Source: Terriglobales bacterium (lineage in GTDB: Bacteria; Acidobacteriota; Terriglobia; Terriglobales; Acidobacteriaceae). From it: a DNA stretch of 44,184 nt. Location of the stretch: NCBI GenBank assembly GCA_035624455.1, contig DASPRM010000053.1, positions 1 to 44,184 on the forward strand, read 5' to 3'. The stretch's first letter is position 1. Each line of letters begins with the position of its first letter. The notes under the pieces were generated by a model, which worked only from the letters and a program-made list of their open reading frames with translations, did not search any database and was not told the DNA's origin. Shown piece by piece: positions 4,832 to 23,270 of this stretch. Both the position numbers and the translations under genes were made by a program.

Positions 4832-4933
4832 GGGACATCAGTTAAGCACAGATGGCAGAGATGCGCACAGGGGATCGTCGGTTGTCGATGGCGGCATTGA
4901 GGATGGCAGTCGACTTTTCTGTTGTTACTGTCG

Positions 4934-4977: not shown

Positions 4978-5073
4978 CGAGCTTCAGGGGCTGCGTGTGT
5001 TCAAGGCTCGGCGTTGGCGATCTCTGCCGGATAAGGGAGGGGCTGAGACCACCAAAGCCGAGTCTTGACTCGC

Positions 5074-5871: not shown

Positions 5872-5872
5872 C
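5851..5872. terminator. Strong hairpin at the 3' end of the lipid operon
   Basis: GGACAGGCGA-GA-TCGCCTGTCC is a perfect 10-bp inverted repeat whose outer base touches the stop codon of the phosphopantetheinyl transferase gene, the last gene of the operon. There is no T-run on either side, so it may be a Rho-independent terminator of weak type, an RNA-stabilising 3' hairpin, or another REP-type palindrome. Confidence 0.45.
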
Positions 5873-6642
5873 TACATGGTCTTTGGGAGAGCAGGTCTGG
5901 GGGAGGCAACGAGCGTCCGCACGAGGTTGTCGCCGTGCAGCCACCAACCATGAAAGAGGAGATCATTCGGAGCCGAGACTTGCAACGGACGCCAAGTCTG
6001 CGCGTCCGCGGGAGGAAGAGGGTTGAAGTCAGTCTCGTTAGTCAGGACGCGCACATCGCGCGTATCCAGGCGAAGGCCTTCGTGCAGGGCTTTTAGCGCG
6101 CTTTCTTTCGCGCTCCAGAGCAGAGCCACTATAAGAGGTTGGCTGGCGGCTGGAGCGCGGGCAATCACGGACTGCTCGTCTGTGGTGAAGAAGTCGCGGA
6201 TGAAAGCATCAGTATGAGGCTCGATAACTTCCAGATCGCAACCCAGATCGGTGCCATGGCGGGCAACCAAACACGCGGCCGTCCCGGCTCGATGGCTGAG
6301 TGAGATGGAAACAGGCGCCGGCCGGTTCGCGATGAAAACTTCAGGCGCGCCGGAGGGCGCCGGGCGGATTTCTACTTTTCTTAGGGAATCTGCTTCGTGC
6401 GAGAGATTCAGATAGGCGGCAACGGCTTGCTTCGCTGTCCAACGGCCCAAACGCCAGTCGCAGCGTCTCTTGGGAATGCGCAGCCGCTGCAGGTGGGCGG
6501 CTTCGCTGGGGCTGAGCCAGTCTTCTTCAGCCGGAACACTTGCTTCCGTTTGCTCGAACCAACAGACGTTCGTAGCGGCGGGTTCGCCGGGATCTGCGAT
6601 CGGCGCCGATTTAACTTCGTTCAGCATACGCGCCATCACCAT
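5872..6642 (-). CDS. Sfp-type 4'-phosphopantetheinyl transferase
   Basis: It transfers phosphopantetheine from CoA to carrier-protein domains. Counting from the ATG at 6642 (256 residues), the Mg-binding motif GCDLE lies at about 134-138 and the second signature WSAKESALK at about 176-184; an Arg/Lys-rich CoA-contact segment and the SLSHRAG motif precede them. Length and motifs fit the Sfp/EntD class used for polyketide and PUFA synthases rather than the small AcpS class. It follows the megasynthase gene by only a few bases and is surely co-transcribed, which makes that protein its obvious client. I prefer the ATG at 6642, which has AGGTG just ahead, over the in-frame GTG at 6648. The clients' carrier sites are Thr, not Ser (see findings). 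Confidence 0.92.
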   Translation of the reverse strand: MVMARMLNEVKSAPIADPGEPAATNVCWFEQTEASVPAEEDWLSPSEAAHLQRLRIPKRRCDWRLGRWTAKQAVAAYLNLSHEADSLRKVEIRPAPSGAPEVFIANRPAPVSISLSHRAGTAACLVARHGTDLGCDLEVIEPHTDAFIRDFFTTDEQSVIARAPAASQPLIVALLWSAKESALKALHEGLRLDTRDVRVLTNETDFNPLPPADAQTWRPLQVSAPNDLLFHGWWLHGDNLVRTLVASPRPALPKTM

Positions 6643-6654
6643 CGGCACCTGCGG

Positions 6655-9600
6655 TTATGCCGCAACAGCTTCCAGGCTCATGGCACGCTGGAGTGCTTGC
6701 AATGCCTTGGGATCGACTGCATTGGGAACGCTCGCCGTGCGATATCCGCGCAGGTCGATGTAACAGTTCCCAGCCGTGTCGAGCACCTGCGCATCGAAGC
6801 CGCCAGAAATCAGGGTGACGACTGCGAACAGAGGTCCTTGCGCCTGGTCTGGCGAGCGCAGAATGCGGACCTGATCGATGTGCCGCGGCAGGCCCATCCT
6901 GCCTTGAACGCCCATCTCCCAAAGTCCGGCTGTCTGGAAGCAGAGTTCGATCAGCCGTGGCGCAGCGACCGCCGGCAACTCGGGCGGGACGTGATTCGTG
7001 GGCAGGTTCTTCGCCATGCGTCCAATGATGCGGTTCCCGTCCCACCATGCCCGCTCCACGACCTGATAGGCCGGTCCGTGGAAATAAGCGCGATAGATTG
7101 CGTCGGATTCGACCACGGCGCCAGCAGGAGTACCTAATGGAGGCAGACTCATCGCGCCGGGCGCTCGCCTGGTTAGCGTCACGCGTGCGGTGAAGTGTGT
7201 GGTGACTTGCGGCTCGGTTTGATTGGGGAGTGTCCGGCTGCCGATCAAACGGCAATCCGCCAGCAGACTGTCTTTCTGTGGGTGAATTAGAGTCTCGAAC
7301 CGTAGCGTGCGTGGCTCGTTGCGGTAAAACTTGAAGGGAGCAAGGAAGTTCACGTCTTCCAAGGCTTCGATTTGCCAGCCGGGAAGCTGGGCAAGGGCAG
7401 CTTCGGCGAAGCCTTCGATGCCCATGACGCCAGGAAGCACTGGCGTACGATCAATCTGATGATCATGCAGGAAAGGCTGAACGGTTGGATTCAGAGTCGT
7501 CTCGATGTCGAAGCCACTGTGCAGGCCGGCGGCAGTGATCTTGCCAAGCATCACTCCTGTTCCTGTTGCTGGCCCTGGTCCTGCTCCGGAGATGTGGAGT
7601 GATTTCTCGCTTGATGTCTGCGTGGTGGTATCAATTCCACCGCTGGCATCCCATTCATTCATGAGAATGCCAAGACGCTGGCCGATCAGGATCTCGCCGC
7701 GGGTTGCACCGGCAGTGAGCTCGCGGCGGATCAGCGGGACACCGGCTTCCGGTGGCAGCATATCGATGCCGGCCATGGCCATGACTTTGGGAATTGAACC
7801 GCGCGTCGCCATGCCGATCCCGCCCCATGCCGTCCAGTCGATGACGATGCCACGGGTCTCCGGGCGGGTAGTGCGGAAGCTGGATGTGATCTTGCACAAC
7901 AGATCGTTGGCGGAGCTGTAATCAGTTTGTCCCGGGTTGCCAAAGCGCCCGGCAATCGAGCTGAACGCGACTGTTGCCTTGAGAGGCATGTCGCCGATGG
8001 CGTGCAGCAAGTTGAAGAAGCCGTCGCTCTTCACGTCGAAGACCAAGTCGAATTCGCGCGGGTCCTTATCCGGCATGGGGTGACTGCGCTCCATGCCCGC
8101 GGCGTGCAACAGCACATCGATGCGGCCGTGCCGCTGGCGGATCTGGTTGATGATCTTGGCGACGGCGTCGGCATCGGTGAGGTTGACGCTGCAATAATGC
8201 GGCGTGCCTCCGGCGGCTCGAACCGCATCGATCGCGCTGCAGGCTGCCTGCGCACGTTCCAGGGCCGCGAGCTCTTTCTCAACCAGCGCAGGCGTGGCAC
8301 GTTCGCCCCGTGCCTGGATGCGAGCAAAAAGATCACGCTTGAGATTCTCTTTGTCGTTCACAAAGCGCTTGAGATCAGGGTTGTTGGGATCGGGTTCGGG
8401 CACCAGATCGAGCAGATAGAAGATGCCGCCCGAAGCTGTCGCAAGGTCAGCGGTGATGGCGGAAACAATACTGCCTGCGGCGCCGGTGATCAGAAAGACT
8501 GTGTTTTCATCCAGCGTCATGCCTGGCTGGCCGTCAGCTGCCGGTTGTTCGTGGAGGCCGACGGTCCAGCGCAATCCGTTCTTGCAGCCGATCTCGACTG
8601 CGCCAGGATCGCGTAGTGTTTCCTGGATGAGTAGATCGGCAACTTCGGCGGCCTTGGGTTCGGGTTCGAAGTCGACGGCCTTGGCGAGGATGTCGGTCCT
8701 CTCGCGCTTATAAGTTTTGGTGAAGCCTACGACTGCTCCGCCCAGCGGCGCAATCGCGCCCGCTTCGTCGTAACCATGCTGACCTCCGAGGCGAGTAGCG
8801 GAGACAAGGAAGGTACCTGGTTTGGCGATCTGCTCATAGAGAGTGCGCATGGTCGTGTAGAGCGATTTGAGACGCACATGTACGGCTGCATGCCAGGTAG
8901 CAAGATCCATGTCGCTGAGATGACCTTCGTTGTCCAGCGCGGGCAGCCAGTACACTCCGTGCACCGGGCCTGCGGCTGTCCATTCCTTGAGGCGGGCCGC
9001 GAGGGTGTCGGCATCGGGAGCGGCGTCGATGCGGAGGACCTCCACGCCGAGCTTCTTGAGCTGTTGGGTGAGGGCGTCGGCTACTCCAGTTTTGTCCGGC
9101 ATGATGAGGACGCGCCGGCCGGCTTCGAGCGCGACAGCAGTCGGCTTGCAGAGCGTGAGTGCGGGGCGCAGGATCGGAATTGGCACTCGGCGCGGAATGG
9201 AATTCGCAGCGTCAAGACTGGCGAGTGGCGGGCGCGGGGCTTTCGCGGCCGTCGGAGATACTGCCACCGGCTTCTGTGCTTTGGCTTCCGGCTTCTCCGA
9301 TGCGGCCACGGGCACTGCACTGGGCGCTTCTGCCAGTCCAGCTCTGTCATGCGCGAACTTAATCACGCTGGCCAGAGTCGGAAAGTCGCGCAACTTGAGA
9401 TTTTCATCCCGCGGAATGTTGTAGGCCGCGCGCACGGCGGCAAACATTTCTGCTTGCTTGACGGTGTCGATGCCGAGATCGGCCTCGAGGTCCAGATCGA
9501 GATCGAGCATGTCTTTGGGATAGCCGGTTTTTTCGGCCACGATTTCCAGGACTTTCTCTTTAATCGCTTCGTCGGTGATCGCTGGAGCGCTCACCGCGGT

Positions 9601-12600
9601 TGCGGTCGCTGAGGGTGTGACAACCGGTGGTGTGACTGCGAGTACGGTGGCCGTTTCGGCAGCGGTCGTGGACTGGCTTGTGCTGGCGGACGGCGGGGCA
9701 CCCTCGATCAGGTCAGGCCGCTTCTCGTAGACGAAGCGGATGACGTGCGCGAGGGTGGGATAGTCGCGAAGCTTGCGGTTCTCGTCGCGCGGGATGCTGT
9801 AGATTTCGCGAATGGCGGCAAACATTTCGGCTTGCTTGACGGTATCGATGCCGAGATCGGCCTCGAGATCGAGATCCAGATCGAGCATGTCTTTGGGATA
9901 GCCCGTTTTTTCGACTACTAAGGCCAGAATGCGGTCTTTTACAGAGTCGCCGGCGCCTTTCGCCGGAACTGCCAGAGCTGGTGCGGCGCTCTTTCTCTCT
10001 TCTACTTGCTTGGGCGCCTCTTGTAGTGGTTGTGGGGCCGCCGGCGATGGCGTTGCGGTAGCGAGGTCCGGACGCTTCTCGAAAACAAAGCGGATGACGT
10101 GCGACAGGGTGGGATAGTCACGCAGCTTGCGGTTCTCATCGCGCGGGATGTTGTAGATTTCGCGGATCGCCGCGAACATCTCAGCCTGTTTAACGGTGTC
10201 GATGCCGAGATCGGCCTCGAGATCGAGATCCAGATCGAGCATGTCCTTGGGATAGCCGGTCTTTTCGACTACTAAAGCCAGAATGCGTTCCTTCACGGAG
10301 TCGCCGCTGGCGTCTTTTGCAGAGATTGCTACGGATGGAGGCGCAGCCGCTTGAGCGGGGACAGGCGCAGCTGCCGGCGCGATGATCTCTTCTACAGGCT
10401 GTTGCGCTATGACAGTTGCGGTCGAGGGCGACTGTGCACTTACAAGATCGGGACGCCGTTCATGCACAAAACGAATCACGTGGGCAAGAGTGGGGAAGTC
10501 GCGCAGCTTGATCTGATCGTCGCGAGCGATGCCATAAGCTTCGCGGATGGTGGCAAAGACCTCGGCTTGCTTAACCGTGTCGATGCCGAGATCGGCCTCG
10601 AGGTCGAGGTCCAGATCGAGCATGTCAACCGGATAACCGGTTTTCTCGGCCACCAGGGCAAGGACGCGCTCTTGCACAGTAGTGTCCGCCGCCGCGGGCT
10701 TCGCCGGTGAAGGAGGAGGTGTCGGCGCGGCAGGCTGCACCTGCACGCTGGGCTGGGCAGGCGGGCGAGGAACTGGCGGCGCTTGCGGTGCAACCGCACG
10801 CGGCGGCGCGGTGCCTTCCGCGACTGGCGCGGGTGCGGTGGCTTTCGCGACTGGCGCCAGCGGCGCTTCCTGAACTGCTGGTACTTCAGGGCCGGTAGCC
10901 AGCGTTATGCGAACGGGAGCGGCTTCGACGGAACGTGCCATCGGGCCCCGATCGCGCACTCGCAGCGTGCGCTGGACGACTTCCAGATCGGTGCTGGAAG
11001 ATCCGGTCAAGCCAGAGAGCCAGCTGTTCCAGGTATTCCTATCCACAATGCGATAGGCATAGCCGAGTGCATTGGGGTTGCGGCGAACACCATCCTGGGT
11101 TGCCACCCAATGCAAGATAGTCATGCTGATTTGCGAACCGAAGCCGGCGCCCAGGCGTAAGGCGTATTCGACCGGGTAAATGCCGCCCTTAGAAAGGTTC
11201 AGTAAGCCCAGCTCAGGGTCTACTTCCTTGAAGTTCGCGACCGGCGGCACGATTCCGGTTTCCAGCGCTTTGACGGCCAAGACATCTTCCACTCCGGCGC
11301 CCATGGCATGGCCGGTGAAACCCTTGGTGTTGGCGATCACGATTTTGTCGGCAGAATCGCCGAAAGCATGACGCAGGGCGTGAATCTCGGCCGCGGCGCT
11401 GCCGCCCCGGGCGGGAGTATAGGTTTCATGGGAAATGAAGACTGTCTTGGGCGCGATCTCGTGACGGCGGACGCCGTAGTGGGTTTCCGCCTGGCGAACC
11501 AACTGCTCCATCACCTGGCTGATGTGGTCAACATCGAGACGAGTGCCATGGAAAGCGCTGTTGGCAGTCACAGCGCTCAGCACTTCACAGATGGGCTGGA
11601 TGCCACGCTCACGCGCAGCATCCGCACTCTCAATCACGAGGCCTGCCGCACCCATGCCGATAATCATGCCGTGGCGGCGGCGGTCGAAGGGGATAGCGGC
11701 TTCCTCGACCACTTCATCGGTCGCAGCGGCGCCGGTGGCCAGGAAGCCGGCGCCCATCCAGTCGATCAACTGATCGGTGGTGATGTCGTCGGCGGAAACG
11801 ACGACTACGCGGCGGCAGCGTCCGGCGCGGATCCAGTCTTCCGCCAGCGATAGGGCTTGCGTGGTACTGGCACAGGCGGAGTTGATTTGAGTATTGGGGC
11901 CGCGAGCGCCGACGAATTCGGCGAACTGCGAATGTCCCATGGGGAGCACGCGGAACAGATAGCGGCGGTCGAAATCATAGGGATTTTTCTCGATGGCGGT
12001 GCGCAACTCTTCGATGCGGCGAGAGATTTCCAGGCCTACTGTGGAATGTCCATTCACTTCCACTGCGTGGGCGAGCAGGTCCTGCAGAAGCGAGAGCTGC
12101 TCGCGGTGCTCGCGGTCGGTGTAGTAGCGGTACATTTCGTCGGCAAAGGAGTTCAGTCCGGGAAAAGCGGAAGCGAAAATTACACCCGTATCGTCGCGCA
12201 AAGCCTGGGGCAATACCCAGCGGTCGGGCAGTTGGGTGCCCTTGGTGGTGGTTTTGTAGCGCAGAACAAGAGGAATGCCGGCATCGCGCAACGCGTCGAG
12301 GCCGACCGCGATGGCTAGTTGAGTATCGCGGTCAAGAGCCAGCACACGCTCGTTGGAAACGCCGAATTCATGCTCCAGATCAAAAACGCCGCCGCGTCCT
12401 GCCAGCTTGATCACATCGGCGATGTTGTTGATGGTCTCAAACGTGGGCCCGCCGTTATCGCTCTTCACCAGCCGCGTGATGTGCTTGTCGAGCATGGCGC
12501 GCCGCAGGCGCGTGGGGATGGAGTCGATGAATTGATCGCCGCGCAATATGCGGCCGATGTTCTGGTCGTCGAAGATGTGATCCGTGCCCGGCAGGCCTAA

Positions 12601-15600
12601 GGCCGCGCCGGTGATGGCGACGGGAGCGTCAGTGTGTGGACGCTCCTGCCCGTGGGTGATCTGCCAGCCACGTTCGAGGGCATCAGCGAAGATGCGCCCT
12701 AATTCGACGTAGCGGTCGCTGGAGAGAGTGGCGGGCGTCGAAGAGCAGACGCTCGTTCCGGCTTCCTGTGCCACCGCAGGGATTGGAGGTTGCGGCGGTG
12801 CGGAAACCGCGGGTTTGGATGTATCCACCGGAGCGGCGGCGGGAGCCGATATCGATGCCGCGGTTGCTGCCACAACTTCGGCTCTTCCACGGCCCAATCC
12901 CGAGGCATAGAGGCAGCACAGAGCCTGGTTAAATGCAGGGATGTCGCCGACTTTCGGATGATTGGTGAAGATGGAAACCACATCAGCCCCGAGCACATCT
13001 TCAGCAAATCCTTGCAAGGCCTTCTTGGGTCCAACTTCGACAAACACGCGCGCGCCCGCGTTGTAGAGGGTGCGCAGGCCTTTCACGAATTGCACGGGAG
13101 CCGCCACCTGCTGCGCCAGAATGTCCAGCATCTGCGGAACGACATTCGGTCCGGTGGGATAAAACTCGCCGTTCGTGTTCGCGACAATGGGAAGGTGCGG
13201 CGATTCCAGATGCAGGCGCTCCAGCACGCGGCGCAAGGGTTCGCTGGCGGGAGCGACAATCGAGGTGTGGAAAGCATGGCTGACGGGTAGTGCCGCTACT
13301 TCGTATCCAGCCTTCTGGAACACTTCCATAGCGCGCTCGACCGCGCTGCTGGTGCCGCCGATTACAGCCTGGTGGTTGCTGTTGATGTTGGCGATGACCA
13401 GGTAGCCGTCGATGGTCTTCAGAATGCGCTCGATTTCCTCCAGTGGAGCGAAAACGGCGGCCATGCGGCCGTTATCGGCCATGGCAACGTGCGTCATCTC
13501 GCGTCCGCGAGCACTGACAGCTTCGAGGGCGTCGGCAAAGGGCAGAGCGTCGACAGCGACAAGGGCTCCGTACTCTCCGAGGCTGTGGCCCATGGTGAAG
13601 TCGGGTGTGATGCCGTAAGCCGCAAGAAGACGGGTGAGCGCGAGATCGGTCGCCAGGACGGCAGGTTGGGTGATTGCCGTCTGCTTGAGAGCTTCTTCCG
13701 CCTGCGCGACCGCGTTGGGATCGGCGCTGTCAACGAAGACGAACTCGCTGAGCGGGTTGCCGAGCAGCGGCGTCATTACGCGATCGGCTTCCGCGATGGT
13801 TTCCGCCACGATGGGCTCGATCTTCAGCAGTGGCTTGAGCATGTTCACGTATTGCGAGCCCTGCCCGGGATAGAGGAATGCCACTTTGGGCGCCAGCCCC
13901 TGGCCGCGGAAAATGCCTTGCGCACGCAGAGCTTTCCAGATCGGCGGTTGATTGGCAGCCAATGCCTTGAGAGCATTGCCTGCTTTCTCCGCCAATTCGG
14001 CGGCATTGGAATAGTCGATGGCCAGGCGCTCGGGAGCACGCAAGTCGGATTCGGCGGGCGGCGCAGGGGCCGGGGCACGGCCGGCGTCCGCTTCCTTCTT
14101 TATTGCGGTCAAACGCTCTGTGAGTTCGGAGGAGGAGGCTGCGCCGATCAAGAGGGCGCCGCGGAAGGGGGCCTTATAAGAAGATGCAAGGTTGGGAGCT
14201 ATATTTTTCGCAGTCATACCAGCCTCAGAAAATGTTGAAGACGGAATGTTGCCGACTGCCACCGAGCGCTTGCCATTGCCGGTGAGGCGATGGGGGATGT
14301 GCTCCTCGAGGACGGCATGGAAATTGGTGCCACCAAAACCGAAGGCGCTGAGACCCGCGCGCCGAACGCCGTCTGGAGGGATGTCCCAAGGTTTCAGTTC
14401 GGTATTGACGTAGAGCGGGGAGTGGGCGAAGTCGATATCCGGATTGGGATGCTCGCAATGAATGCTGGGTGGAAGCACCTTGTCGCGAAGCGCCAGCGCA
14501 GCTTTCAGCAAGCCAGCTGCACCGGCGGCTCCTTTGAGATGGCCGATATTCGATTTGACTGAGCCCAAGGCTACGGACGCGGGCGGCAGATGAGCACTGT
14601 TGATCACGTCAGCCAGACCCTGCACTTCGACGACGTCGCCGACGCGCGTCGATGTGCCGTGTCCCTCAAACAAGGTGGCCGTGGCGGGTGATAGTCCGGC
14701 ATTCTGCCAGCCACGTTCGACGGCTAATTTTTGGCCGAGTGGGTTGGGAGCGGTGATCCCCTTGCCTTTGCCATCACTCGATCCGCCTATGCCACGCAGG
14801 ACAGCGTAGATTTTGTCGCCGTCGCGCTCGGCGTCGGCCAGGCGCTTGAGCAGGAAAATGGCAGCGCCTTCGCCCATCACGAAGCCGTCGGCTCCCAGAG
14901 CATAGGGACGCGTGCCGGTAGCCGAGAGCGCGCCGATCTTGCAGAATTTCACGAAGGTGGGAGCGCCCATGTTGCGGTCAATACCGCCGGTGATCGCGGC
15001 GTCGAATTCGTTCTGCACCAGCCCCTCAATCGCAGCGCTGATAGCGGCCATGGCCGAGGCGCACGCCGCGTCACACACAAAATTGGGACCATGGAAATTG
15101 AAAACATTGGCCAGGCGTCCGGCGATGCAGTTGGCCAGTTCACCCGGCATGCTGTCTTCGGTCACGGGAGGCAGATGCTGCGCAATGCGGTCGTGCAGTT
15201 CGCAAGTGATTTCCCTACGCACGGATTCTGGAAGCGCCGCAAAGCTCGGGCTGTCGGCCAGTTCGCGGGCATACTCCGGGAAATAAATGCGGAATGAAGT
15301 GAGATAGTGTCTCTCACCCGCCATGGCGTTGCCGAGAATGACGGCGGTACGATCGAAATCCAGAGGCCGCTGGGGATGGCCGTAATCGAGGAGCACCTCG
15401 CGGACGCAGGCGATGGCCCACTTCTGCGCTCCATCCATGGCATCGACGACGCGCGGCGGGATGGCCAGCTTCCACTTCATGGGATCCCATGTGAATTCGC
15501 GCACCCAGCCGCCGATCTTGGAGTAAGTCTTGTCCGGCGCGGTGGGATCGGGATCGTAATAGAGCGCCGGATCCCAGCGCTCGGGATCGACGTCGGAGAT

Positions 15601-15711
15601 GCTGTAGCGGCCCTTCTTTACGTTCTCCCAGAAGGCGGCAACGTCGCGGGCATCGGGCAGAACGGCTCCTGCCCCCACAATCGCTATGGCGCGATGCGCG
15701 GTGCTTTCCAT
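6655..15711 (-). CDS. PUFA-synthase-like megasynthase: KS-AT-KS-ACP(x4)-KR-DH
   Basis: A single 3018-residue type I synthase. KS1 (about 8-470) has Cys217 in DAACASA, His351 in HGTST and His391 in GHLKG. AT (about 608-930) has GQGSQ at 616-620, Ser710 in GHSLGEYG and His815. A second, divergent KS (about 1030-1540) has Cys1280, His1428 in HET instead of HGT, and His1468. Pro/Ala linkers then separate four carrier domains (about 1679-2127). A structural plus catalytic KR (about 2195-2690) keeps Lys2561, Ser2585, Tyr2598 and Asn2602. The DH double hot-dog (about 2730-2990) has His2751. There is no enoyl reductase, thioesterase or chain-length-factor domain. AGGAG seven bases before the ATG supports the start. 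It should extend acyl chains with malonyl units, leaving hydroxyl or double-bond groups. The product is unknown. Confidence 0.92.
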   Translation of the reverse strand: MESTAHRAIAIVGAGAVLPDARDVAAFWENVKKGRYSISDVDPERWDPALYYDPDPTAPDKTYSKIGGWVREFTWDPMKWKLAIPPRVVDAMDGAQKWAIACVREVLLDYGHPQRPLDFDRTAVILGNAMAGERHYLTSFRIYFPEYARELADSPSFAALPESVRREITCELHDRIAQHLPPVTEDSMPGELANCIAGRLANVFNFHGPNFVCDAACASAMAAISAAIEGLVQNEFDAAITGGIDRNMGAPTFVKFCKIGALSATGTRPYALGADGFVMGEGAAIFLLKRLADAERDGDKIYAVLRGIGGSSDGKGKGITAPNPLGQKLAVERGWQNAGLSPATATLFEGHGTSTRVGDVVEVQGLADVINSAHLPPASVALGSVKSNIGHLKGAAGAAGLLKAALALRDKVLPPSIHCEHPNPDIDFAHSPLYVNTELKPWDIPPDGVRRAGLSAFGFGGTNFHAVLEEHIPHRLTGNGKRSVAVGNIPSSTFSEAGMTAKNIAPNLASSYKAPFRGALLIGAASSSELTERLTAIKKEADAGRAPAPAPPAESDLRAPERLAIDYSNAAELAEKAGNALKALAANQPPIWKALRAQGIFRGQGLAPKVAFLYPGQGSQYVNMLKPLLKIEPIVAETIAEADRVMTPLLGNPLSEFVFVDSADPNAVAQAEEALKQTAITQPAVLATDLALTRLLAAYGITPDFTMGHSLGEYGALVAVDALPFADALEAVSARGREMTHVAMADNGRMAAVFAPLEEIERILKTIDGYLVIANINSNHQAVIGGTSSAVERAMEVFQKAGYEVAALPVSHAFHTSIVAPASEPLRRVLERLHLESPHLPIVANTNGEFYPTGPNVVPQMLDILAQQVAAPVQFVKGLRTLYNAGARVFVEVGPKKALQGFAEDVLGADVVSIFTNHPKVGDIPAFNQALCCLYASGLGRGRAEVVAATAASISAPAAAPVDTSKPAVSAPPQPPIPAVAQEAGTSVCSSTPATLSSDRYVELGRIFADALERGWQITHGQERPHTDAPVAITGAALGLPGTDHIFDDQNIGRILRGDQFIDSIPTRLRRAMLDKHITRLVKSDNGGPTFETINNIADVIKLAGRGGVFDLEHEFGVSNERVLALDRDTQLAIAVGLDALRDAGIPLVLRYKTTTKGTQLPDRWVLPQALRDDTGVIFASAFPGLNSFADEMYRYYTDREHREQLSLLQDLLAHAVEVNGHSTVGLEISRRIEELRTAIEKNPYDFDRRYLFRVLPMGHSQFAEFVGARGPNTQINSACASTTQALSLAEDWIRAGRCRRVVVVSADDITTDQLIDWMGAGFLATGAAATDEVVEEAAIPFDRRRHGMIIGMGAAGLVIESADAARERGIQPICEVLSAVTANSAFHGTRLDVDHISQVMEQLVRQAETHYGVRRHEIAPKTVFISHETYTPARGGSAAAEIHALRHAFGDSADKIVIANTKGFTGHAMGAGVEDVLAVKALETGIVPPVANFKEVDPELGLLNLSKGGIYPVEYALRLGAGFGSQISMTILHWVATQDGVRRNPNALGYAYRIVDRNTWNSWLSGLTGSSSTDLEVVQRTLRVRDRGPMARSVEAAPVRITLATGPEVPAVQEAPLAPVAKATAPAPVAEGTAPPRAVAPQAPPVPRPPAQPSVQVQPAAPTPPPSPAKPAAADTTVQERVLALVAEKTGYPVDMLDLDLDLEADLGIDTVKQAEVFATIREAYGIARDDQIKLRDFPTLAHVIRFVHERRPDLVSAQSPSTATVIAQQPVEEIIAPAAAPVPAQAAAPPSVAISAKDASGDSVKERILALVVEKTGYPKDMLDLDLDLEADLGIDTVKQAEMFAAIREIYNIPRDENRKLRDYPTLSHVIRFVFEKRPDLATATPSPAAPQPLQEAPKQVEERKSAAPALAVPAKGAGDSVKDRILALVVEKTGYPKDMLDLDLDLEADLGIDTVKQAEMFAAIREIYSIPRDENRKLRDYPTLAHVIRFVYEKRPDLIEGAPPSASTSQSTTAAETATVLAVTPPVVTPSATATAVSAPAITDEAIKEKVLEIVAEKTGYPKDMLDLDLDLEADLGIDTVKQAEMFAAVRAAYNIPRDENLKLRDFPTLASVIKFAHDRAGLAEAPSAVPVAASEKPEAKAQKPVAVSPTAAKAPRPPLASLDAANSIPRRVPIPILRPALTLCKPTAVALEAGRRVLIMPDKTGVADALTQQLKKLGVEVLRIDAAPDADTLAARLKEWTAAGPVHGVYWLPALDNEGHLSDMDLATWHAAVHVRLKSLYTTMRTLYEQIAKPGTFLVSATRLGGQHGYDEAGAIAPLGGAVVGFTKTYKRERTDILAKAVDFEPEPKAAEVADLLIQETLRDPGAVEIGCKNGLRWTVGLHEQPAADGQPGMTLDENTVFLITGAAGSIVSAITADLATASGGIFYLLDLVPEPDPNNPDLKRFVNDKENLKRDLFARIQARGERATPALVEKELAALERAQAACSAIDAVRAAGGTPHYCSVNLTDADAVAKIINQIRQRHGRIDVLLHAAGMERSHPMPDKDPREFDLVFDVKSDGFFNLLHAIGDMPLKATVAFSSIAGRFGNPGQTDYSSANDLLCKITSSFRTTRPETRGIVIDWTAWGGIGMATRGSIPKVMAMAGIDMLPPEAGVPLIRRELTAGATRGEILIGQRLGILMNEWDASGGIDTTTQTSSEKSLHISGAGPGPATGTGVMLGKITAAGLHSGFDIETTLNPTVQPFLHDHQIDRTPVLPGVMGIEGFAEAALAQLPGWQIEALEDVNFLAPFKFYRNEPRTLRFETLIHPQKDSLLADCRLIGSRTLPNQTEPQVTTHFTARVTLTRRAPGAMSLPPLGTPAGAVVESDAIYRAYFHGPAYQVVERAWWDGNRIIGRMAKNLPTNHVPPELPAVAAPRLIELCFQTAGLWEMGVQGRMGLPRHIDQVRILRSPDQAQGPLFAVVTLISGGFDAQVLDTAGNCYIDLRGYRTASVPNAVDPKALQALQRAMSLEAVAA
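9331..10677 (-). repeat. Four tandem carrier-domain repeats within the megasynthase gene
   Basis: Four carrier-domain units with period about 350-380 bp, each encoding KTGYP-x-DMLDLDLDLEADLG, then IDTVKQAE, and ending in a FPTL/YPTL-x-x-VI motif. Units 2 and 3 (roughly 10087-10310 and 9725-9955) are nearly identical at the DNA level, including synonymous positions, while units 1 and 4 have drifted. The Thr codons at the attachment site are ACG in unit 1 (10576-10578) and ACC in units 2-4. Confidence 0.9.
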
Positions 15712-15789
15712 GATGACGCTCCTGCTTTTTGACCCGAGGCACCCGGGTGGCTGAGAGTCAGGCGGATGCCTGCCGAAGATTTATGAATG

Positions 15790-17463
15790 CTAGGCGGCTG
15801 CCGCGCGCTTCTGCGCGCGGTTGTATAAGACGTCAGCGATGTAATCCATATCTGCAATGAGGCCAGTCTGCGCCTGAAGAATGGCAGGGAAACCCAAACT
15901 TGTTTCGAAGGCGGGGATCTCCGCCGCACTCAGGCTGGCGGCTCCGATCGACAAACGCAGGCCTTCCTGTGCGACCTTAAGGGCAGCGTCGCGGGCGAAG
16001 ACTCGGCTCAGCGCTGCCAAAGCGTCGGGATCAAAGCGCCGGTTGGCTTTTTCGTTAAGCTTGTTATCCGCGGTCGCGGCGGCACGGCGGGCCAGGCATC
16101 CGGCGCACTCGGCGTAGGCGATCAACTCGCCGAGACGCAGGAGAATGTGCTGGAAGCGGGTGAGACGTGCCACTCTGGCCTTTTCCATTACCTCCGCAAG
16201 TGCATGCAGAGCCAGCGCGGCGATGTTGGCACCGACGTTGGGGCGCTGGGCGTGCAGGGCTTCCATTTTTTGCGCTTGCTCGTGATAGTACTGCCCGCGG
16301 GTTTTCAGATGGAGCTGCCAGCGGTCACGGCTGATGGTCATCTCCATGATTTCCGAGGTGCCCTCGTAGATGATGGTGATGCGAACGTCGCGGCTGATCT
16401 TCTCCACCATGTACTCGTGGGTGTAGCCGTAACCGCCCAGGGCCTGGATGCTGGCTTCGGCAGCCATATTGCCGGCCTCGGTGGCCATGTACTTGGCAAT
16501 GGCGCCTTCGGTGTTCAAGGTGCCTTCTCCGGCGTCAATGCGCTCGGCGGTTTCTTCGATATAGGCCCGGGCAGCTTCGAGGCGGGCGACGTGCGGGACG
16601 ATCAGTTTGTGGGTGTATCCCTGCTTTTCGGAGAGCGGCGCTCCTGCCTGGATGCGTTTTGTGGAATAGGGAATTGCACGATCCAGCGCCGCCCAGCCAC
16701 CTCCGAGTCCGAAGGCCGCAACCATCAGGCGGGTGTAGCCGAAGACAGCCTGCGCCTGGTTCAGGCCCTGGCCTTCCACGCCGCCGACCAGACGATCGGC
16801 ATCGACATAGACGTTGTCGAGCGCCAGTGCGGCGGTGTTGCTGAGGCGAATACCGTGCTTGTTTTCGGGCTTGTCGTGGGTGAAGCCCTTGGCCCCTTTT
16901 TCCACGATGAACCAACTGGGACCGCCGGGCGTGTTGGCCAGGATGGTGTAGGCATCGGCCACGCCACCATTGCTGATCCACTGCTTGTTGCCGGTGATCT
17001 TGTAGCCGACCACCCGGCCATTCTCGGTGACACGGTCCGCGGTGGTGCGCAGGGCTCCCAGATCACTGCCGGCTTCGGGCTCGGTGGCGCCGTAGGCGAA
17101 CAACAATCCTTCTTCCGCGATACGCGTCAGCCAGTGTTTTTTCTGCTCGGGAGTTGCACCGACGGTAATGGGATCGCTGCCCAGAAACGTGGCCAGTACC
17201 GATGTCGCCACACCCAGATCGACGCGCGCCATTTCTTCGCAGATGAGGTACACATCGAAGGCGCCGCCACCTAAGCCGCCGCAATCTTCGGGAACGAAGA
17301 GCAACTGAATGCCGAGCTGATCGGGATTGCACATGTAGCGGACGATTTCCATGGGGCATTCGTCTTTTTCGTCCAACTCGATGAGCTTCTCGTCGGGCAG
17401 ACGTTTCTTGGCGAAGTCTTTGAAGGATTTCAAACTCAGTTTCAGGGTTTTGAATGGGATCAT
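15790..17463 (-). CDS. Acyl-CoA dehydrogenase (long form)
   Basis: It oxidises acyl-CoA to trans-2-enoyl-CoA with FAD, passing electrons to ETF. The three-part fold is clear: an N-terminal helical domain, a beta domain with [15 protein letters not shown] and KQWISNGG, and a C-terminal helical domain with the catalytic-base region [10 protein letters not shown] (Glu near residue 367 from the ATG). About 160 extra C-terminal residues give the long form (557 residues against about 380 for short-chain enzymes), common for enzymes paired with membrane ETF acceptors. The ATG at 17463 has GAGGA ahead and is preferred over the in-frame GTG at 17478. It follows etfA by 11 nt and precedes the megasynthase by 78 nt. 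Because the synthase lacks an enoyl reductase, a reverse role is conceivable but unproven. Confidence 0.93.
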
Positions 17464-17474
17464 TACTGTTTTCC

Positions 17475-18461
17475 TCACTTTGCCGAAACGCTGCGCATTT
17501 CGCGGACTTTGTTGGTCAGTTCGGGCAGGAATTCCAGGATGTCATCGACAATGCCGACATCCGCTACCTGAAAGATGGGAGCCTTGGGATTTTTGTTAAT
17601 CGCGACGATGAATGGATTGCCTTTCAAACCGGCCAGGTGCTGGAACGCGCCGCTGATGCCGCACGCCAGATAGACCTTGGGCTTGACAGTCTTGCCGGAA
17701 GAACCGACCTGGCGGGATTTTTCCATCCACTTGGCATCGACTACGGGTCGTGAGCAGGAAACCGCTGCGCCCAGCGCGTCAGCCAGTTCCTGAGCGATGG
17801 CAACGTTCTCGGGTTTCTGAATACCTCGACCGATGGATACGAGGACGTTGTGTTTGGTGATATCGACATCGCCAGCTTCGGCCGCGATGGTCTGCAGATA
17901 ACGCCGGCCAGTGGTTAATGTGCCAATGGCTGCCGATTTGTCGAGCACCTGGCCATTTACGGCGGGGCCCTCAAGCGGCTTGAACGAACCAGGACGCACG
18001 CTGACAACCGCACCGGCTGAGGTGTCACAAGCCACGTGGGCGCTGACCTGGCCCCCGAATTCCTGGCGGACGACTTTGAGATGGGCACCATCCAGGCCGT
18101 CGATTGCGGTTACGTCGGAGACGAATGTTGACTTCAGCTTGATGGAGAGTCCCGGGGCCAGATCGATCCCGAAGTGCTCGTGCGCAACCAAGAGAATGCT
18201 GCCGGCAGGCACAACGCCTACGAGGGCTTTGCGGACCAACTCAGCGTTGGGATAGGCGAGAGCTTCATTCGAGATCTTCCAGACTTCAGCATAGGAAGCG
18301 CGGAGGGCGTTGCACGCGGACTCGAGGTCTGGACCCGAACCGGTGAGAATGGCGACGGGAGATGCGCCGGCATCAATCTTGCGTGCCGCTGCCGCCAGTT
18401 CCGCCGCGGGATCAGCGGGCACACCATCTTTGTGCAGGATGTAAGCAAAAATTCGAGGCAT
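17475..18461 (-). CDS. etfA: Electron transfer flavoprotein, alpha subunit
   Basis: A protein of 328 residues. The C-terminal FAD-binding domain is unmistakable: [20 protein letters not shown], then [20 protein letters not shown] and [20 protein letters not shown]. The N-terminal half is the usual alpha/beta domain that contacts EtfB. Its start codon overlaps the etfB stop codon by one base (TAATG), implying translational coupling and a 1:1 complex. With EtfB it should carry electrons between the acyl-CoA dehydrogenase encoded just downstream and the membrane oxidoreductase encoded just upstream. Confidence 0.96.
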
Positions 18462-19252
18462 TACTTCAACCCTCCTTTGGCTGCGACTAGCTCAAGAACT
18501 CTGTCGGCGTTTTCTTCGCGGCTGCCCTGCAGCATCTCGGCTCCCTTGCCGAGCGCGGGCACGAAATAGTCGAGACGTTTCACTTTGGCGCCGGTCTCGC
18601 CCACCGTGCCTGGATCGAGACCGAGGTCGGAAGTGGCGAAGGTTGGAATCGGTATGGACGCTACCTGGCGGATGCCGCGCATCCCGACGTAGCGCGGTTC
18701 GTTAATCCCGGTCTGAATCGAGAGCACACAGGGGAGATCGATCTCATTCATCTCCTTGTTGCCGCCCTCGATTTCGCGGCTGATCTTCAGCTTCTTGCTG
18801 TCGAGGACCTCGATGGAATTGACCAGAGACGCGAACGGATAATCGAGCATGGCGGCCAACATGCCTCCAACCTGGGCGCCGCCGTCTTCCGCCTGAACGC
18901 CGGTCAGGATCAGGTCGTAGTGACCCTTGTCGATGAAAGCTTTGAGGATGGTGGCGATACCTTTGCCGTCTGATCCGGTGAATTCCTCATCCGAGATCAG
19001 CACGCCCTGGTTTGCGCCCATGGCCATCTCGCGGCGCAGGACCTCCTCGTCGTCCTCGTTGCCCACGGTAACGACGGTGACGTTGCCGCCGAGCCTGGCG
19101 ACCAGCTGCAGCGCCTCTTCGACGGCATAGTTATCGGGTTCGTTGATGGAATAGACGAGGTCATCGCGCTCAATGTCGTTGCCGGCGCGGTTGAGCTGAA
19201 TCTCGTTTTCCGATGTGTCGGGCACTCTTCGTACGCAAACCAGAATTTCCAC
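18461..19252 (-). CDS. etfB: Electron transfer flavoprotein, beta subunit
   Basis: The EtfB start signature EILVCVRRVPDTSENEI is followed by NEPDNYAVEEALQL and a typical AMP/nucleotide-binding core with ILTGVQAEDGGAQVGGMLA. I place the start at the GTG at 19252 (263 residues) because GGAGGT lies four bases before it and the family begins at this point. The longer frame from 19276 lacks a ribosome site and would overlap the previous stop codon. It is the partner of etfA in the same operon. No NADH-linked bifurcating partner is encoded nearby, so the quinone-linked type is more likely. Confidence 0.95.
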   Translation of the reverse strand: MEILVCVRRVPDTSENEIQLNRAGNDIERDDLVYSINEPDNYAVEEALQLVARLGGNVTVVTVGNEDDEEVLRREMAMGANQGVLISDEEFTGSDGKGIATILKAFIDKGHYDLILTGVQAEDGGAQVGGMLAAMLDYPFASLVNSIEVLDSKKLKISREIEGGNKEMNEIDLPCVLSIQTGINEPRYVGMRGIRQVASIPIPTFATSDLGLDPGTVGETGAKVKRLDYFVPALGKGAEMLQGSREENADRVLELVAAKGGLK

Positions 19253-19272
19253 GTTTACCTCCGAACTGTTAT

Positions 19273-21351
19273 TCACGCCGCTTGCGCAGCTTCGCGGGCG
19301 ATGTGTTGGTCGACCAGTTCCGCCAGATCGATGGCGGTCATCTTTCCTTCCAGGCCTGCAACCTTGATGGCATCCTCAATGTTCACCATGCAGAACGGAC
19401 AGGCGGTTACGATCACGTTGACCCCAGCTTCGGCCGCCATCTGGACACGCTTTACCCCGATTCGCTCATCTTCCTTGGGTTCGTAGAACAACATCAGTCC
19501 ACCGCCACCGCAGCAGAAGGAGCGATCTCGCGAGCGGGTCATCTCGATCCGCTTGAGGCCCGGGATGGCATCGAGCACAGCGCGGGGCTCGTCGTAGACC
19601 TGGTTGTGCCGCCCCAGATAGCAGGGGTCGTGGAACGCGTAGACGCTATCGTTGTTTGCGATCGGGTGAAAGTTGAGCTTGCCGGTCTTAATTCCGCGGG
19701 CGATCACCTGGCTGATGTGCTCGACCGGGGGAAGGTCTTTGTAGTCGCGCTTCAGCGCGTTGTAGGCGTGGGGATCGGCGGTGACGATGCGGCTGACTCC
19801 TGAAGCCTTGATCGCGGCGACGTTCTGGTCGCGCAACGAGGCGAAGAGGAATTCCTCGCCGAAGCGCCGAACCTCATGACCGCTGTCTTTTTCCTTCGCG
19901 CCGAGGATTCCGAAATTCTCGCCTAGGTGGTCGAGGATTCTGGCTGTGGCCCGGCCAATCGACTGCATGCGGTCGTCGTAAGAGGTGATGCTGTCTACGA
20001 AGAAGAGGGTGTTGGCGCCATTCTTTTGGTCGAGAATCCTGACCTGGCAGGCTTGCTGGAACTCCTGGGCAGTGGCCCAGTCCGCCCTCTTCTTTTCCAT
20101 CTTGCCGTAGGGATTACCGCGGCTCTCCAGAGCCTTCAACGGTTTCTGCAAGGACTGGGGCACTCTTCCTTCATCGATCAGGCCGCGGCGCAGGTCGACG
20201 ATCTTGTCGATGTATTCCACCAGCAACGGGCACTCCTGTTCGCAGGCGCCGCAGGTAGTGCAGGACCAGATCTCATCCTCGGAATAGACATTCCCGACCA
20301 GGGGCGTGCTGTTGGTCGAGCTGCCGAACATTGGGTAATGCTGAAAGGCGTAATCTCGCGCCTTAATAGTGAGAAAGCGTGGAGACAATGGTCTGCCCAC
20401 CGAGTTGGAGGGGCAGTTATCCGAACAGCGGCCACAATCGGCGCAGCTGTAGAAGTCGAGCATGTGCTTCCAGGTGAAGTCCTCAAATTTCTTCACGCCG
20501 AAAGATTTCACCTGATCCAGTTGATCGTCGGAGATGCCCCATCGGACAGGCTTGAGCGCGTCGCGGTCGAGTTTGGCGAAGTAGACGTTGAACAGCGAGG
20601 TCTCCACGTGAAACTGAATGCCAAACGGCCGGTAGCAGAGCAGGAAGTAGAAAGTCAGTTCATGCAGGAGATAGGCGCCAATGTAGAGATTTCTCAGAGC
20701 TGTCAGCGAAGCGGAAGCGAAGGCGATCTGCAACATCCAAGGCAGGGACAAGAAGGCCAAAGCCGCCGCGGGTTGGCCGAGATGGGACTCACCGGCGGTC
20801 TTGGCGGCGGCGAAGGAACTGTCCGCCAGCATGAGTATGGCGATCAGCGCTAATAAGAAGATGGCGTCAATGGGATGGCCTTTGCCGAACTTTGCCGGCA
20901 CCGCGTAACGCGCAGGCTTGAAGACGGCGCGGCGAATGATCGCCACGATCATGCAAGCGAATACGACGGTAGAGGCGTAGTCGGTGATGAGGTCGTATAT
21001 CTGGCCGGCCTTGCCGGAGAGCATGGCGAAGTCCGGCCAGATACCGACGAAGAGCACGGTGAAGGCGCGCATGGCCAGCAGGATGAATCCGGCGAAGATC
21101 AGAATGTGAAGCGTTCCGGCGGTGCGGTAACGTGGGTGCTTCCATTGTCCCAGCCAATACTTGAAGACCATTCGCAAGCGGGCCCAGGGCTGATCGAAAC
21201 GGAAGTCGCGCTCCGCTTGCAGCAGTGGCGCCAGGCGTCGAGCCACGATGTAGGCAAAACAGGCGACCGCAAGAATGTGGATCATGAGGAACAGAACTTG
21301 CCCCGGGATCAACCAACTGGAGACTTGCGCTGCTGACGGGAGGTTTTCCAT
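19273..21351 (-). CDS. EMO-type ETF:menaquinone oxidoreductase (membrane + HdrD-like FeS protein)
   Basis: Residues 1-250 carry about six membrane helices of the nitrate-reductase-gamma/HdrE kind with His residues suited to heme b. Two ferredoxin motifs follow, CADCGRCSDNCP and CTTCGACEQECP (about 303-314 and 364-375). The C-terminal half has two CCG-type domains. The second is intact (HDPC, SFCCGGGG and ACPFC). The first has lost its cysteines, with FFVDSITSYDDR and EKDSGHEVRR where Cys is expected. Fusion of these parts beside etfAB is the hallmark of EtfAB:menaquinone oxidoreductases, which join acyl-CoA oxidation to the quinone pool. The ATG at 21351 is preceded by GGAGGAG and is preferred over the upstream TTG. 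The heme ligands are inferred. Confidence 0.9.
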   Translation of the reverse strand: MENLPSAAQVSSWLIPGQVLFLMIHILAVACFAYIVARRLAPLLQAERDFRFDQPWARLRMVFKYWLGQWKHPRYRTAGTLHILIFAGFILLAMRAFTVLFVGIWPDFAMLSGKAGQIYDLITDYASTVVFACMIVAIIRRAVFKPARYAVPAKFGKGHPIDAIFLLALIAILMLADSSFAAAKTAGESHLGQPAAALAFLSLPWMLQIAFASASLTALRNLYIGAYLLHELTFYFLLCYRPFGIQFHVETSLFNVYFAKLDRDALKPVRWGISDDQLDQVKSFGVKKFEDFTWKHMLDFYSCADCGRCSDNCPSNSVGRPLSPRFLTIKARDYAFQHYPMFGSSTNSTPLVGNVYSEDEIWSCTTCGACEQECPLLVEYIDKIVDLRRGLIDEGRVPQSLQKPLKALESRGNPYGKMEKKRADWATAQEFQQACQVRILDQKNGANTLFFVDSITSYDDRMQSIGRATARILDHLGENFGILGAKEKDSGHEVRRFGEEFLFASLRDQNVAAIKASGVSRIVTADPHAYNALKRDYKDLPPVEHISQVIARGIKTGKLNFHPIANNDSVYAFHDPCYLGRHNQVYDEPRAVLDAIPGLKRIEMTRSRDRSFCCGGGGLMLFYEPKEDERIGVKRVQMAAEAGVNVIVTACPFCMVNIEDAIKVAGLEGKMTAIDLAELVDQHIAREAAQAA

Positions 21352-21379
21352 GGTCTCCAACTCCTCCCCGTGGCGATTG

Positions 21380-22948
21380 CTAAGCGATCAATCGCGTGGG
21401 AGTTTCTTCCGCTTGCACTGCCAGCCCGGGCGTCGCGGGCAGATTGGCGCCAGGGGCGGGAACGGGGCCGGGAGTTTTCTTTGGTTTTGCGAGGGCCGGC
21501 TTCGAGGCCTCAATTCGCTTCTTTCTTTTGTTGCGTGGCGGCTGATGCCCTGCCGCCTGTTTCAGTTCTTTGAAGCTTGCTGACAAGAGTGTTTCCAGGC
21601 GCCGCAGATCCGGCGCCGCGTGTACCTCGCCGCTGAACCCGAAGTACATGGCTCCGTTGTAGCTCAGAATGGCGCAGTTGACGGCCATTTCGCCGCCGAC
21701 CGGGACGTAGGGGTACCACTGCAGCATCTTGTGGCCGATCAGGTAGAGGGGGAATTGCGGTCCCGGCACGTTGGTACAAACTAAATTGAACGGCGTAATC
21801 GGAAGCTGGCTGGCAATGGGACCGGCGAAAGCCTGCAACGAAGTGGGAAGCATTCCGACCAGACCGCCGGCCAGACTGACCAGCTCGGCGGCGTGCGACC
21901 GCTTGAGAAACTCAGTTCTCTTATGAACGGCGGCGAGCAGCTTTCGAGGATTGCGAATATCGAAGGGAATCGTGACCGGTACCAGCGAAATACGGTTTCC
22001 CATCTCGTTGGGCTGGCCATTCCCGCGCAGATTCACCGGAACCATGATGCGGAGCAGGCGGCCTTTTACCGGATCGCCATGGAGTTCGCAGTAGCGGCGG
22101 AAGGTAGCCGTCACCAGCGCGAGGATGACGTCGTTCACACTGGTTCCGCAAGCATGCCGGATCGCCTTGACCTCATCCAGAGGAATGTCTGCCCAGGCGA
22201 ACTTTTGCGGTCCGCGGTAAGGGAGATTGAATCGCAGCCGTTCGGTGAATGCCGTGATTTCCGGCAGCAGATGAAAGAATTCATCGGTTGAGGTACTGGC
22301 GCCAGTGGCCGCAGCCCGCTCGGCTATGCTCAGCAGGTCTTCGTAAGCGGAAAGAATTCGTCTGACGAAATCGGAATAGGAATCAATGACGCTGTTGGTC
22401 AGCGAGGTCCAGGCATTGCGTGGTGAGGCGACCTGGAGGCGTAGTTTCTTTCGAGGCAGTGGCTGCACTTCCGGGCTGGCATCGAGGAGAGCGTTCATGA
22501 TGCCCACTCCGGCGATGCCATCGACGACGCAGTGATGAATGCGGGCGATGAGGGCAGTGCGGTTACCTGTAAGACCGTGCACCAGGGTGAGGTCCCACAA
22601 AGGCCGGCGGCGGTCCATGACCTTGCTGAAGATTTTTCCGGCAAAGGTCTTCAACTCCGCCTCGGAGCCACGCTTGAGGGTCACGTCGAACACATGGTTG
22701 CGTATGTCGAAGTTGGGATCGAATTCCCAACTGGGCAGGCCAATGTTCAGCGGGGGAGCCACTAGTCTCTGGAGATAGCGGGGAATAAGCGGCAGTTTCG
22801 ATTCGACAAAACGGATGCAGGTTTTAAACGGAATCTGCCCATCGAACACGCAGACACTGGCCACGTTGAGCGGCATGTCCTTGCGCTCCAGGTTCAGGAA
22901 AACGGTGTCACCCCATGAGAGGCGATTGTCGAGAACGTCGTGCTGCAT
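21380..22948 (-). CDS. Wax ester synthase / acyl-CoA:diacylglycerol acyltransferase (WS/DGAT)
   Basis: It joins an acyl-CoA to a fatty alcohol or diacylglycerol to give wax ester or triacylglycerol, at the membrane/inclusion surface. The catalytic motif HHCVVDG lies at 138-144, preceded by RPLWDLTLV (about 115-123). The C-terminal half has the NDVILALV stretch and the PFNLVCTNVPGPQFPLYL motif conserved in this family. After about residue 470 there is a basic, Pro/Ala-rich tail not needed by the fold. It lies one base after the STAS gene and 28 nt before the EMO gene. With AdhE in the same operon as a possible alcohol supplier, ester formation is a plausible end step; glyceride acylation is the alternative. 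Confidence 0.92.
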   Translation of the reverse strand: MQHDVLDNRLSWGDTVFLNLERKDMPLNVASVCVFDGQIPFKTCIRFVESKLPLIPRYLQRLVAPPLNIGLPSWEFDPNFDIRNHVFDVTLKRGSEAELKTFAGKIFSKVMDRRRPLWDLTLVHGLTGNRTALIARIHHCVVDGIAGVGIMNALLDASPEVQPLPRKKLRLQVASPRNAWTSLTNSVIDSYSDFVRRILSAYEDLLSIAERAAATGASTSTDEFFHLLPEITAFTERLRFNLPYRGPQKFAWADIPLDEVKAIRHACGTSVNDVILALVTATFRRYCELHGDPVKGRLLRIMVPVNLRGNGQPNEMGNRISLVPVTIPFDIRNPRKLLAAVHKRTEFLKRSHAAELVSLAGGLVGMLPTSLQAFAGPIASQLPITPFNLVCTNVPGPQFPLYLIGHKMLQWYPYVPVGGEMAVNCAILSYNGAMYFGFSGEVHAAPDLRRLETLLSASFKELKQAAGHQPPRNKRKKRIEASKPALAKPKKTPGPVPAPGANLPATPGLAVQAEETPTRLIA

Positions 22949-22949: not shown

Positions 22950-23270
22950 TCAGCTCTCCTTGCTTGGTGCGGCCAGGTGGGCGTCGTCGCTTACAAAAGA
23001 AAAGCGGGACGTTAGCCTGGACAGCTTAAGCACTTTGTAAACATCGACGCTCACGCCGTGCAATGTGACCTTGATGGCCTTGTCGTCGGCGCTGCCGGCG
23101 AATTTCGCCAGCGCGGCGAGCGCGTTGGGATCGATTCGGCGCACCGACGAGAAATCCAAGGCTAACTTGCCTTCGGCCCTGTCCAACTGCTCCTCGGCAG
23201 ATTGCAAAGCACGGGTCAGGCACTCTCCGTCAATCTTCAGTGACATTGGAATTGTCATAATCACAGCCAT
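22950..23270 (-). CDS. STAS-domain protein (anti-sigma-antagonist-like)
   Basis: A protein of 106 residues with the STAS fold: LDFSSVRRIDPNALAALAKF (38-57) aligns with the usual LDLSxVxxIDSSGLxxLL core, followed by an alpha/beta C-terminal half. The serine that is phosphorylated in SpoIIAA-type antagonists is replaced (Asp47-Pro48-Asn49-Ala50), so control by a kinase at that site is unlikely. It may instead act as a binding module, as in MlaB-type lipid-transport proteins. It sits 3 nt after adhE and 1 nt before the WS/DGAT gene, so it is part of the lipid operon. Its partner is unknown. Confidence 0.78.
   Translation of the reverse strand: MAVIMTIPMSLKIDGECLTRALQSAEEQLDRAEGKLALDFSSVRRIDPNALAALAKFAGSADDKAIKVTLHGVSVDVYKVLKLSRLTSRFSFVSDDAHLAAPSKES

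Follow-up and report, generated by a model that had tools for sequence, protein, structure and literature searches.

The window analysed here is the whole of a 44,184-nucleotide stretch of DNA from a Terriglobales bacterium (contig DASPRM010000053.1 of assembly GCA_035624455.1), and its main subject is a large synthase encoded by a single open reading frame (ORF) of 3018 aa on the minus strand. The protein matches Pfam ketosynthase (KS), acyltransferase (AT), phosphopantetheine-binding (PP-binding), ketoreductase (KR) and dehydratase (PS-DH) families, and its four acyl carrier protein (ACP) domains all fall in the region that separates the second KS from the KR (Table 1). A reading of this DNA from the sequence alone, here called the sequence-only reading, had pointed out that all four carrier domains hold threonine (Thr) where serine (Ser) should bear the pantetheine arm, and that a 4'-phosphopantetheinyl transferase (PPTase) is encoded immediately downstream. 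Both observations hold. LGIDT occurs four times in the synthase, each carrier domain reads LGIDTVKQAE, the numbering (Thr1712, 1839, 1957 and 2083) and the codons (one ACG, three ACC) agree, and the PPTase ORF lies 6 bases past the synthase.

By profile and by fold these are carrier domains. Each of the four exceeds the cut-off of PF00550 (PP-binding), and an AlphaFold2 (AF2) model of a carrier domain (pLDDT 85.5) has the ACP fold with Thr as the first residue of helix II; they depart from the family in having Thr instead of Ser at the attachment site. The absence of another Ser near that helix was likewise borne out, with none within 25 residues of Thr1712, Thr1839 or Thr2083, and a single one, Ser1972, 15 residues past Thr1957. 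The window genome contains five other PP-binding matches, four of which have Ser (two ACPs sharing a contig, one further ACP of small size, and a domain within a 931-aa frame), while the fifth scores below the family cut-off.

The synthase matches an already known type. Type R secondary lipid synthases have been described, as an uncharacterised class, as a single PfaA homologue (KS-MAT-CLF-ACP(3-6)-KR, with CLF for chain-length factor) followed by a PPTase gene, and occur in Koribacter, Solibacter, Elusimicrobium and Roseiflexus, of the Acidobacteria, Elusimicrobia and Chloroflexi (Shulse and Allen, 2011, PMC3098273). The window agrees with this description in its KS-AT-KS2 order, four ACPs and KR, and in its downstream PPTase. 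In Koribacter a carboxylase gene is reported between the two (PMC3098273). The word "serine" is absent from the main text of that paper, and Thr is unmentioned in the parts covering Type R. The window synthase also passes the NCBIfam model TIGR02813 (PfaA) with 1115.1 bits against a cut-off of 1010.1, and has the KS-AT-ACPn-KR order in common with PfaA of polyunsaturated fatty acid (PUFA) synthases and with other PfaA-like synthases of the Ser type. It is set apart from PfaA by the extra KS2 and by the Thr carriers; in each of the other, Ser-type PfaA-like synthases that we read, Ser stands in DSIKRxE or a similar motif.

The catalytic residues of the synthase are intact. Among 48 aligned long synthase frames, of which 47 are distinct, the residues invariant in 47/47 are Cys217, His351 and His391 of KS1, Ser710 and His815 of the AT (His812 is Gln in one frame), Cys1280, His1428 and His1468 of KS2, Lys2561, Ser2584/2585, Tyr2598 and Asn2602 of the KR, and His2751 and His2878 of the DH. 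Since these residues are invariant, the synthase should need thiol-bearing carriers. The second condensing domain was named CLF in the Type R paper (PMC3098273), whereas here its nucleophile Cys and its two His residues are retained throughout, and the Cys speaks against a pure chain-length factor.

Threonine carriers in related synthases and other architectures

Relatives were fetched with an alignment query covering only the KR-DH part, without carrier domains, so that retrieval could not depend on the carrier residue; 80 of the 114 confirmed places were kept. Together, 83 loci were examined, mostly from metagenome-assembled genomes: the window, L033 and L036 (the window's own group), and L038-L117 (L numbers are our handles for loci). 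Carrier rows were found in 81 of these and a readable site in 80, as one locus has only a cut domain and two have none. The attachment site is Thr in 240/240 readable sites (246 carrier rows, six of them without the site), and the Thr is therefore not due to chance. All four Thr codons are used (ACG 108, ACC 108, ACT 14, ACA 10). Readable ACPs number 1 to 6 per locus, cut contigs included, and in several relatives (e.g., L043, L097, L104, L113, L194) the synthase is split over frames or contigs. Some loci have identical DNA (L035 and L057; L265 and L073; L266 and L084). Judging from the record titles, the Thr loci come from Acidobacteriota, Chloroflexota, Deltaproteobacteria/Myxococcota, Actinomycetota, Bacteroidota, Calditrichota and KSB1, with one titled Rhodopila.

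These data strongly support the earlier suggestion that the Thr is selected and not a sequencing error: Thr is fixed in the seven named phyla, in all four codons, with Ser one base away (ACN to TCN). The pattern in which homologues have Ser and Thr occurs only in this strain is not what the alignment gave. Sequencing error or local mutation is thus ruled out by the fixation across phyla, and degenerate, non-functional carriers are ruled out by the nearly invariant EADLGxDTVKQAE stretch. The KQ of the motif was also considered as the cause of the Thr and ruled out, since SLKQTE (L222) and SIKQVE (L244) carry Ser. As a separate observation, one of the four carrier domains of L296 reads LGIDTVKTA, with the Gln altered and the Thr retained.

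Phylum-wide samples were searched with a carrier profile built from the Thr domains, which catches Ser domains too, as the Ser matches in the counts make clear. In Acidobacteriota, 19 of 199 genomes match at 1e-8, with Thr in 15 and Ser (DSIKRxE) in 4. Seven of 151 Chloroflexota genomes match at the same threshold; Thr is found in six, two of which also hold a separate Ser synthase, and Ser only in one. Among Actinomycetota, 13 of 296 match at 1e-10, with Thr in two (one also with a Ser synthase) and Ser in 11. In Myxococcota, 82 of 188 genomes match at E 1e-10 or better. Sites were read in 35 of these 82: all 30 genomes giving loci have Thr in the loci read (67/67 readable sites across 29 loci, including two also caught with the KR-DH query, plus L199), and the five weaker-scoring genomes have Ser. 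None of the synthases read mixes Thr and Ser carriers; Ser is confined to other synthases, in DSIKRxE or similar motifs. A search of plasmids gave a single record with a partial match, the 11.85 Mb Nonomuraea gerenzanensis.

Some Myxococcota Thr synthases are built differently. Seven already known to have Thr (L293-L299) were fetched, and in all seven KS, AT, ACPs, KS2, KR/DH and PPTase are on a single open frame (3065-4141 aa), which has the PPTase at its C-terminus; Pfam confirms the fused PPTase domain in both frames scanned. Two of the seven have one ACP before KS2 and three after it. Five Ser synthases of the same phylum (L300-L304), chosen for weaker scores before their residues were read, have a PPTase on the synthase frame in 0/5 cases, and mapping of these five gave no KS2 match in the AT-ACP interval. 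The fused Thr synthases are perhaps self-arming, to judge from this arrangement. We know of no name for this class. A further type is found in an acidobacterium (L193), where a KS-KS-AT-ACP3-AAT-KR protein (5631-15518) with an inserted AAT (PF03417) has carriers reading DTVKQAQ and a PPTase gene nearby (4324-4983); in our KS1 tree its KS domains sit on long branches, well away from the Type R clade. With Type R, the Myxococcota fused type and the L193 type, Thr carriers are therefore found in at least three architectures.

The Thr could instead be a founder substitution fixed by descent, modified by a generalist PPTase or by AcpS and without a role in insulation. Inheritance from a single ancestor does explain part of the pattern, as KS1 domains of Type R from different phyla group in a single clade of our tree (28 rows, SH-aLRT 99), and the PPTase of L193 is unlike the others, suggesting that several PPTase kinds may do. 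However, Ser would require only one base change, yet four Thr codons are used and there are zero reversions in 240 sites. Thr also occurs in the other architectures, each with its own or a fused PPTase, and at an E-value threshold of 0.01 the only PPTases in the window genome are AcpS and the one adjacent to the synthase. We therefore consider the founder explanation quite improbable.

The adjacent phosphopantetheinyl transferase

Neighbouring genes were counted in 81 loci (the window and L038-L117) as BLAST hits at 1e-12 anywhere in the locus. A PPTase homologue is present in 56/56 loci with at least 7 kb 3' of the synthase, and a looser count, which asked for 1.5 kb, gave 71 of 77 loci. In the locus listing it comes after the synthase; L109, L111 and L115 have it on the opposite strand. 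This listing used 18 query proteins, and there may be another constant neighbour beyond these. The PPTases adjacent to Type R synthases form one group relative to the other PPTases sampled (26 rows, SH-aLRT 97).

Sfp-type PPTases share the conserved residues D-x-E, E and W-x-x-K-E-x-x-x-K. The window PPTase has these residues together with the Sfp-type fold, and Asp138, Glu140, Glu158, Lys181-Glu182 and Lys186 are invariant in 83/83 distinct Thr-associated PPTases with letters there. The best PDB matches of its AF2 model (pLDDT 91.7) include human PPTase-ACP (2cg5), Sfp-PCP (4mrt) and PptAb-ACP (6rcx). A PDB search with the single PPTase sequence gave no match at 0.001; the alignment query did match.

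Three positions were considered for the choice of acceptor. Arg61 is found in 83/83 Thr-associated PPTases and in 1/11 comparison PPTases, a small set, and may be regarded as the first candidate from these alignments. Ser/Thr116 and Arg/His145 are also kept in 83/83, yet Ser occurs at the former in 3/11 others and Arg at the latter in 2/11, which makes both weak candidates. GLRxDTR was dropped as a unique signature of these enzymes: it is frequent in the main group and absent from the L193 and fused PPTases.

Proposed arming of the carriers and alternative explanations

The sequence-only reading had left two alternatives, that the PPTase has adapted to Thr or that the domains act without the usual arm. 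Because Thr is invariant, the active sites are intact and the PPTase is constantly present, we favour an adapted PPTase, as do the Myxococcota fusions; arm-less domains are disfavoured. From the sequence evidence, it is highly probable that the system is a catalytically complete iterative lipid synthase with carriers armed on Thr by an adjacent, dedicated Sfp-type PPTase. We infer that the Thr carries the arm, that the adjacent PPTase installs it, and that the Thr keeps AcpS off.

The dedicated PPTase, which is part of the same polypeptide in the Myxococcota branch, would move 4'-phosphopantetheine from coenzyme A (CoA) onto the hydroxyl of the Thr that begins helix II. On the armed carriers, the AT would load malonyl units, KS1 and KS2 would condense them, and the KR and DH would process the products. 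Guessing from gene context, enoyl reduction probably takes place in trans through the neighbouring acyl-CoA dehydrogenase with electron transfer flavoprotein (ETF), and the window product is perhaps passed to AdhE and the wax ester synthase/DGAT (WS/DGAT) to give a wax ester.

Several points weigh against arming on Thr by a dedicated PPTase. In the literature searched, from which subscription journals mostly fell out of scope, no natural Thr attachment site or pantetheine arm on Thr is reported. The S36T variant of E. coli AcpP is reported as not modifiable and non-functional, and was used as a negative control (PMC3340395), and changing Ser38 of spinach ACP-I to Thr abolished function, as cited in the introduction of PMC9310384. 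The PPTase of L193, which accompanies a Thr synthase, falls outside the main group of Thr-associated PPTases, and among the PPTases compared no residue is proven to set acceptor choice. In addition, the Ser-type loci L037, L189 and L191 also hold a PPTase-like domain in a long ORF (L037:13756-14184, L189:1977-2555, L191:4969-5445). In the alignment, each of these domains is missing at least one of the acidic residues usual at the metal site, which may reflect real degeneration or misalignment.

The AcpP and ACP-I results could mean that the carriers remain unmodified and serve a structural or docking role, with the synthase using free acyl-CoA and the PPTase serving other carriers; the CoA-type enzymes around the synthase (acyl-CoA dehydrogenase, WS/DGAT and AdhE) would fit this. 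However, both are artificial mutants and concern ordinary ACPs and PPTases. Unmodified carriers would also leave it unexplained why the 240 sites have Thr and never Ala or Val, why the AT Ser and KS Cys are invariant, and why a PPTase is found in every locus with room and on the synthase frame in all seven Myxococcota cases fetched. This explanation appears improbable to us. That the Thr hydroxyl bears another modification accepted by the KS domains, such as phosphorylation or direct acylation, would agree with the strictly kept hydroxyl, but is scarcely credible given that fold, position and PPTase association fit canonical carriers.

Thr mutants of ordinary ACPs are reported to be dead, so a natural Thr may insulate carriers from AcpS. 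This leads to a broader interpretation of the armed Thr carriers as an orthogonal activation code, in which dedicated PPTases are Thr-specific, AcpS and ordinary Sfp-type enzymes cannot modify the carriers, and the lipid pathway is insulated from Ser carriers in seven phyla and three architectures; we lean towards this interpretation, by a little. A comparison for the fused enzymes is CalE8, an enediyne polyketide synthase (PKS) with a single ACP. Like the Myxococcota Thr synthases it is iterative and has its own PPTase domain, and its ACP departs from the usual GX(H/D)S(L/I) motif, but its acceptor is still Ser (Ser971; S971A is reported inactive) (PMC3107222). Within the literature searched, Thr as the acceptor, how widely it occurs and its association with PPTases that are dedicated or fused all appear to be unreported.

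Ser is treated as the universal attachment residue, and motif searches and assembly-line annotation may discount carriers that lack it. If true, a Thr class that is natural and fixed would change this rule and suggest a second way of arming carrier proteins. It would also supply a ready-made orthogonal carrier/PPTase pair for use in labelling and engineering, and would allow direct tests of a widespread, uncharacterised lipid pathway, that of Type R and its relatives in Myxococcota. Comparison of Thr- and Ser-type enzymes, with Arg61 as first candidate, makes acceptor choice by PPTases testable.

Gene neighbourhood

Table 1. Features of the synthase locus, in window positions
Feature	Position	Strand	Evidence
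Sfp-type 4'-phosphopantetheinyl transferase, 258 aa, proposed partner of the Thr carriers	5872..6648	-	PF01648, AF2 model, fold matches
Type I iterative synthase KS-AT-KS2-ACP4-KR-DH, 3018 aa	6655..15711	-	ORF, Pfam, NCBIfam, alignment
KS1 domain, Cys217/His351/His391	14302..15693 (approximate boundaries)	-	Pfam, alignment
AT domain, GHSLGE Ser710	12997..13878	-	Pfam, alignment
Second KS-like domain (KS2), Cys1280/His1428/His1468	10912..12564 (approximate)	-	alignment; Pfam ketoacyl-synt second stretch, ACP_syn_III at residues 1276-1322
Carrier domain 1, Thr1712 (ACG, 10576-10578)	10456..10695	-	PF00550
Carrier domain 2, Thr1839 (ACC, 10195-10197)	10075..10314	-	PF00550
Carrier domain 3, Thr1957 (ACC, 9841-9843)	9721..9960	-	PF00550
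Carrier domain 4, Thr2083 (ACC, 9463-9465)	9343..9582	-	PF00550
KR domain	7792..8514 (approximate)	-	Pfam, alignment
PS-DH (dehydratase) domain, His2751/His2878	6712..7512 (approximate)	-	Pfam, alignment
Acyl-CoA dehydrogenase, proposed enoyl reductase in trans	15790..17478	-	Pfam, NCBIfam, homologues
EtfA-like electron transfer flavoprotein (presumed)	17475..18461	-	position, homologues; named from the sequence
EtfB-like electron transfer flavoprotein (presumed)	18461..19276	-	position, homologues; named from the sequence
Fe-S oxidoreductase	19273..21360	-	weak, below-cut-off likeness to TfrB/LdhH models (NCBIfam)
Wax ester synthase/DGAT	21380..22948	-	Pfam, TIGR02946
Small STAS-domain protein, inside the putative lipid operon	22950..23270	-	domain scan
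Fused aldehyde/alcohol dehydrogenase (AdhE-like)	23274..25949	-	Pfam

The genes from AdhE-like to PPTase are on the same strand, in the order AdhE-like, STAS, WS/DGAT, Fe-S oxidoreductase, EtfB, EtfA, acyl-CoA dehydrogenase, synthase and PPTase. Gaps within this run are at most 19 bases, with some overlaps, except for 78 bases before the synthase. The two flavoprotein genes are presumed to be EtfA-like and EtfB-like from their sequences. Our guess is that the run is one operon making a reduced lipid, perhaps a wax ester, with ETF-linked enoyl reduction. An acyl-CoA dehydrogenase homologue is present in 47/47 loci with 1.7 kb of 5' room. Near the other synthase copies, the homologue listing is without AdhE, and WS/DGAT is represented by two weak homologues only (L111, L117).

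Of the 56 loci whose sequence extends at least 7 kb beyond the 3' end of the synthase, 46 have a carboxylase homologue. In most Acidobacteriota loci it separates the synthase from the PPTase; in Chloroflexota it comes after the PPTase, and the homology there (32-38% identity) may reflect shared domains only. In L033, a 1867-aa protein resembling acetyl-CoA carboxylase (12615-18218; biotin carboxylase, biotin, ACC_central PF08326 and carboxyl transferase domains) lies between the two genes. The window has no such carboxylase, and its genome shows only separate biotin-carboxylase matches. Elsewhere in the window, a GMC oxidoreductase is encoded at 28197-29915, and roughly twelve Acidobacteriota loci have a homologue of it (71-76% identity) close to the cluster.

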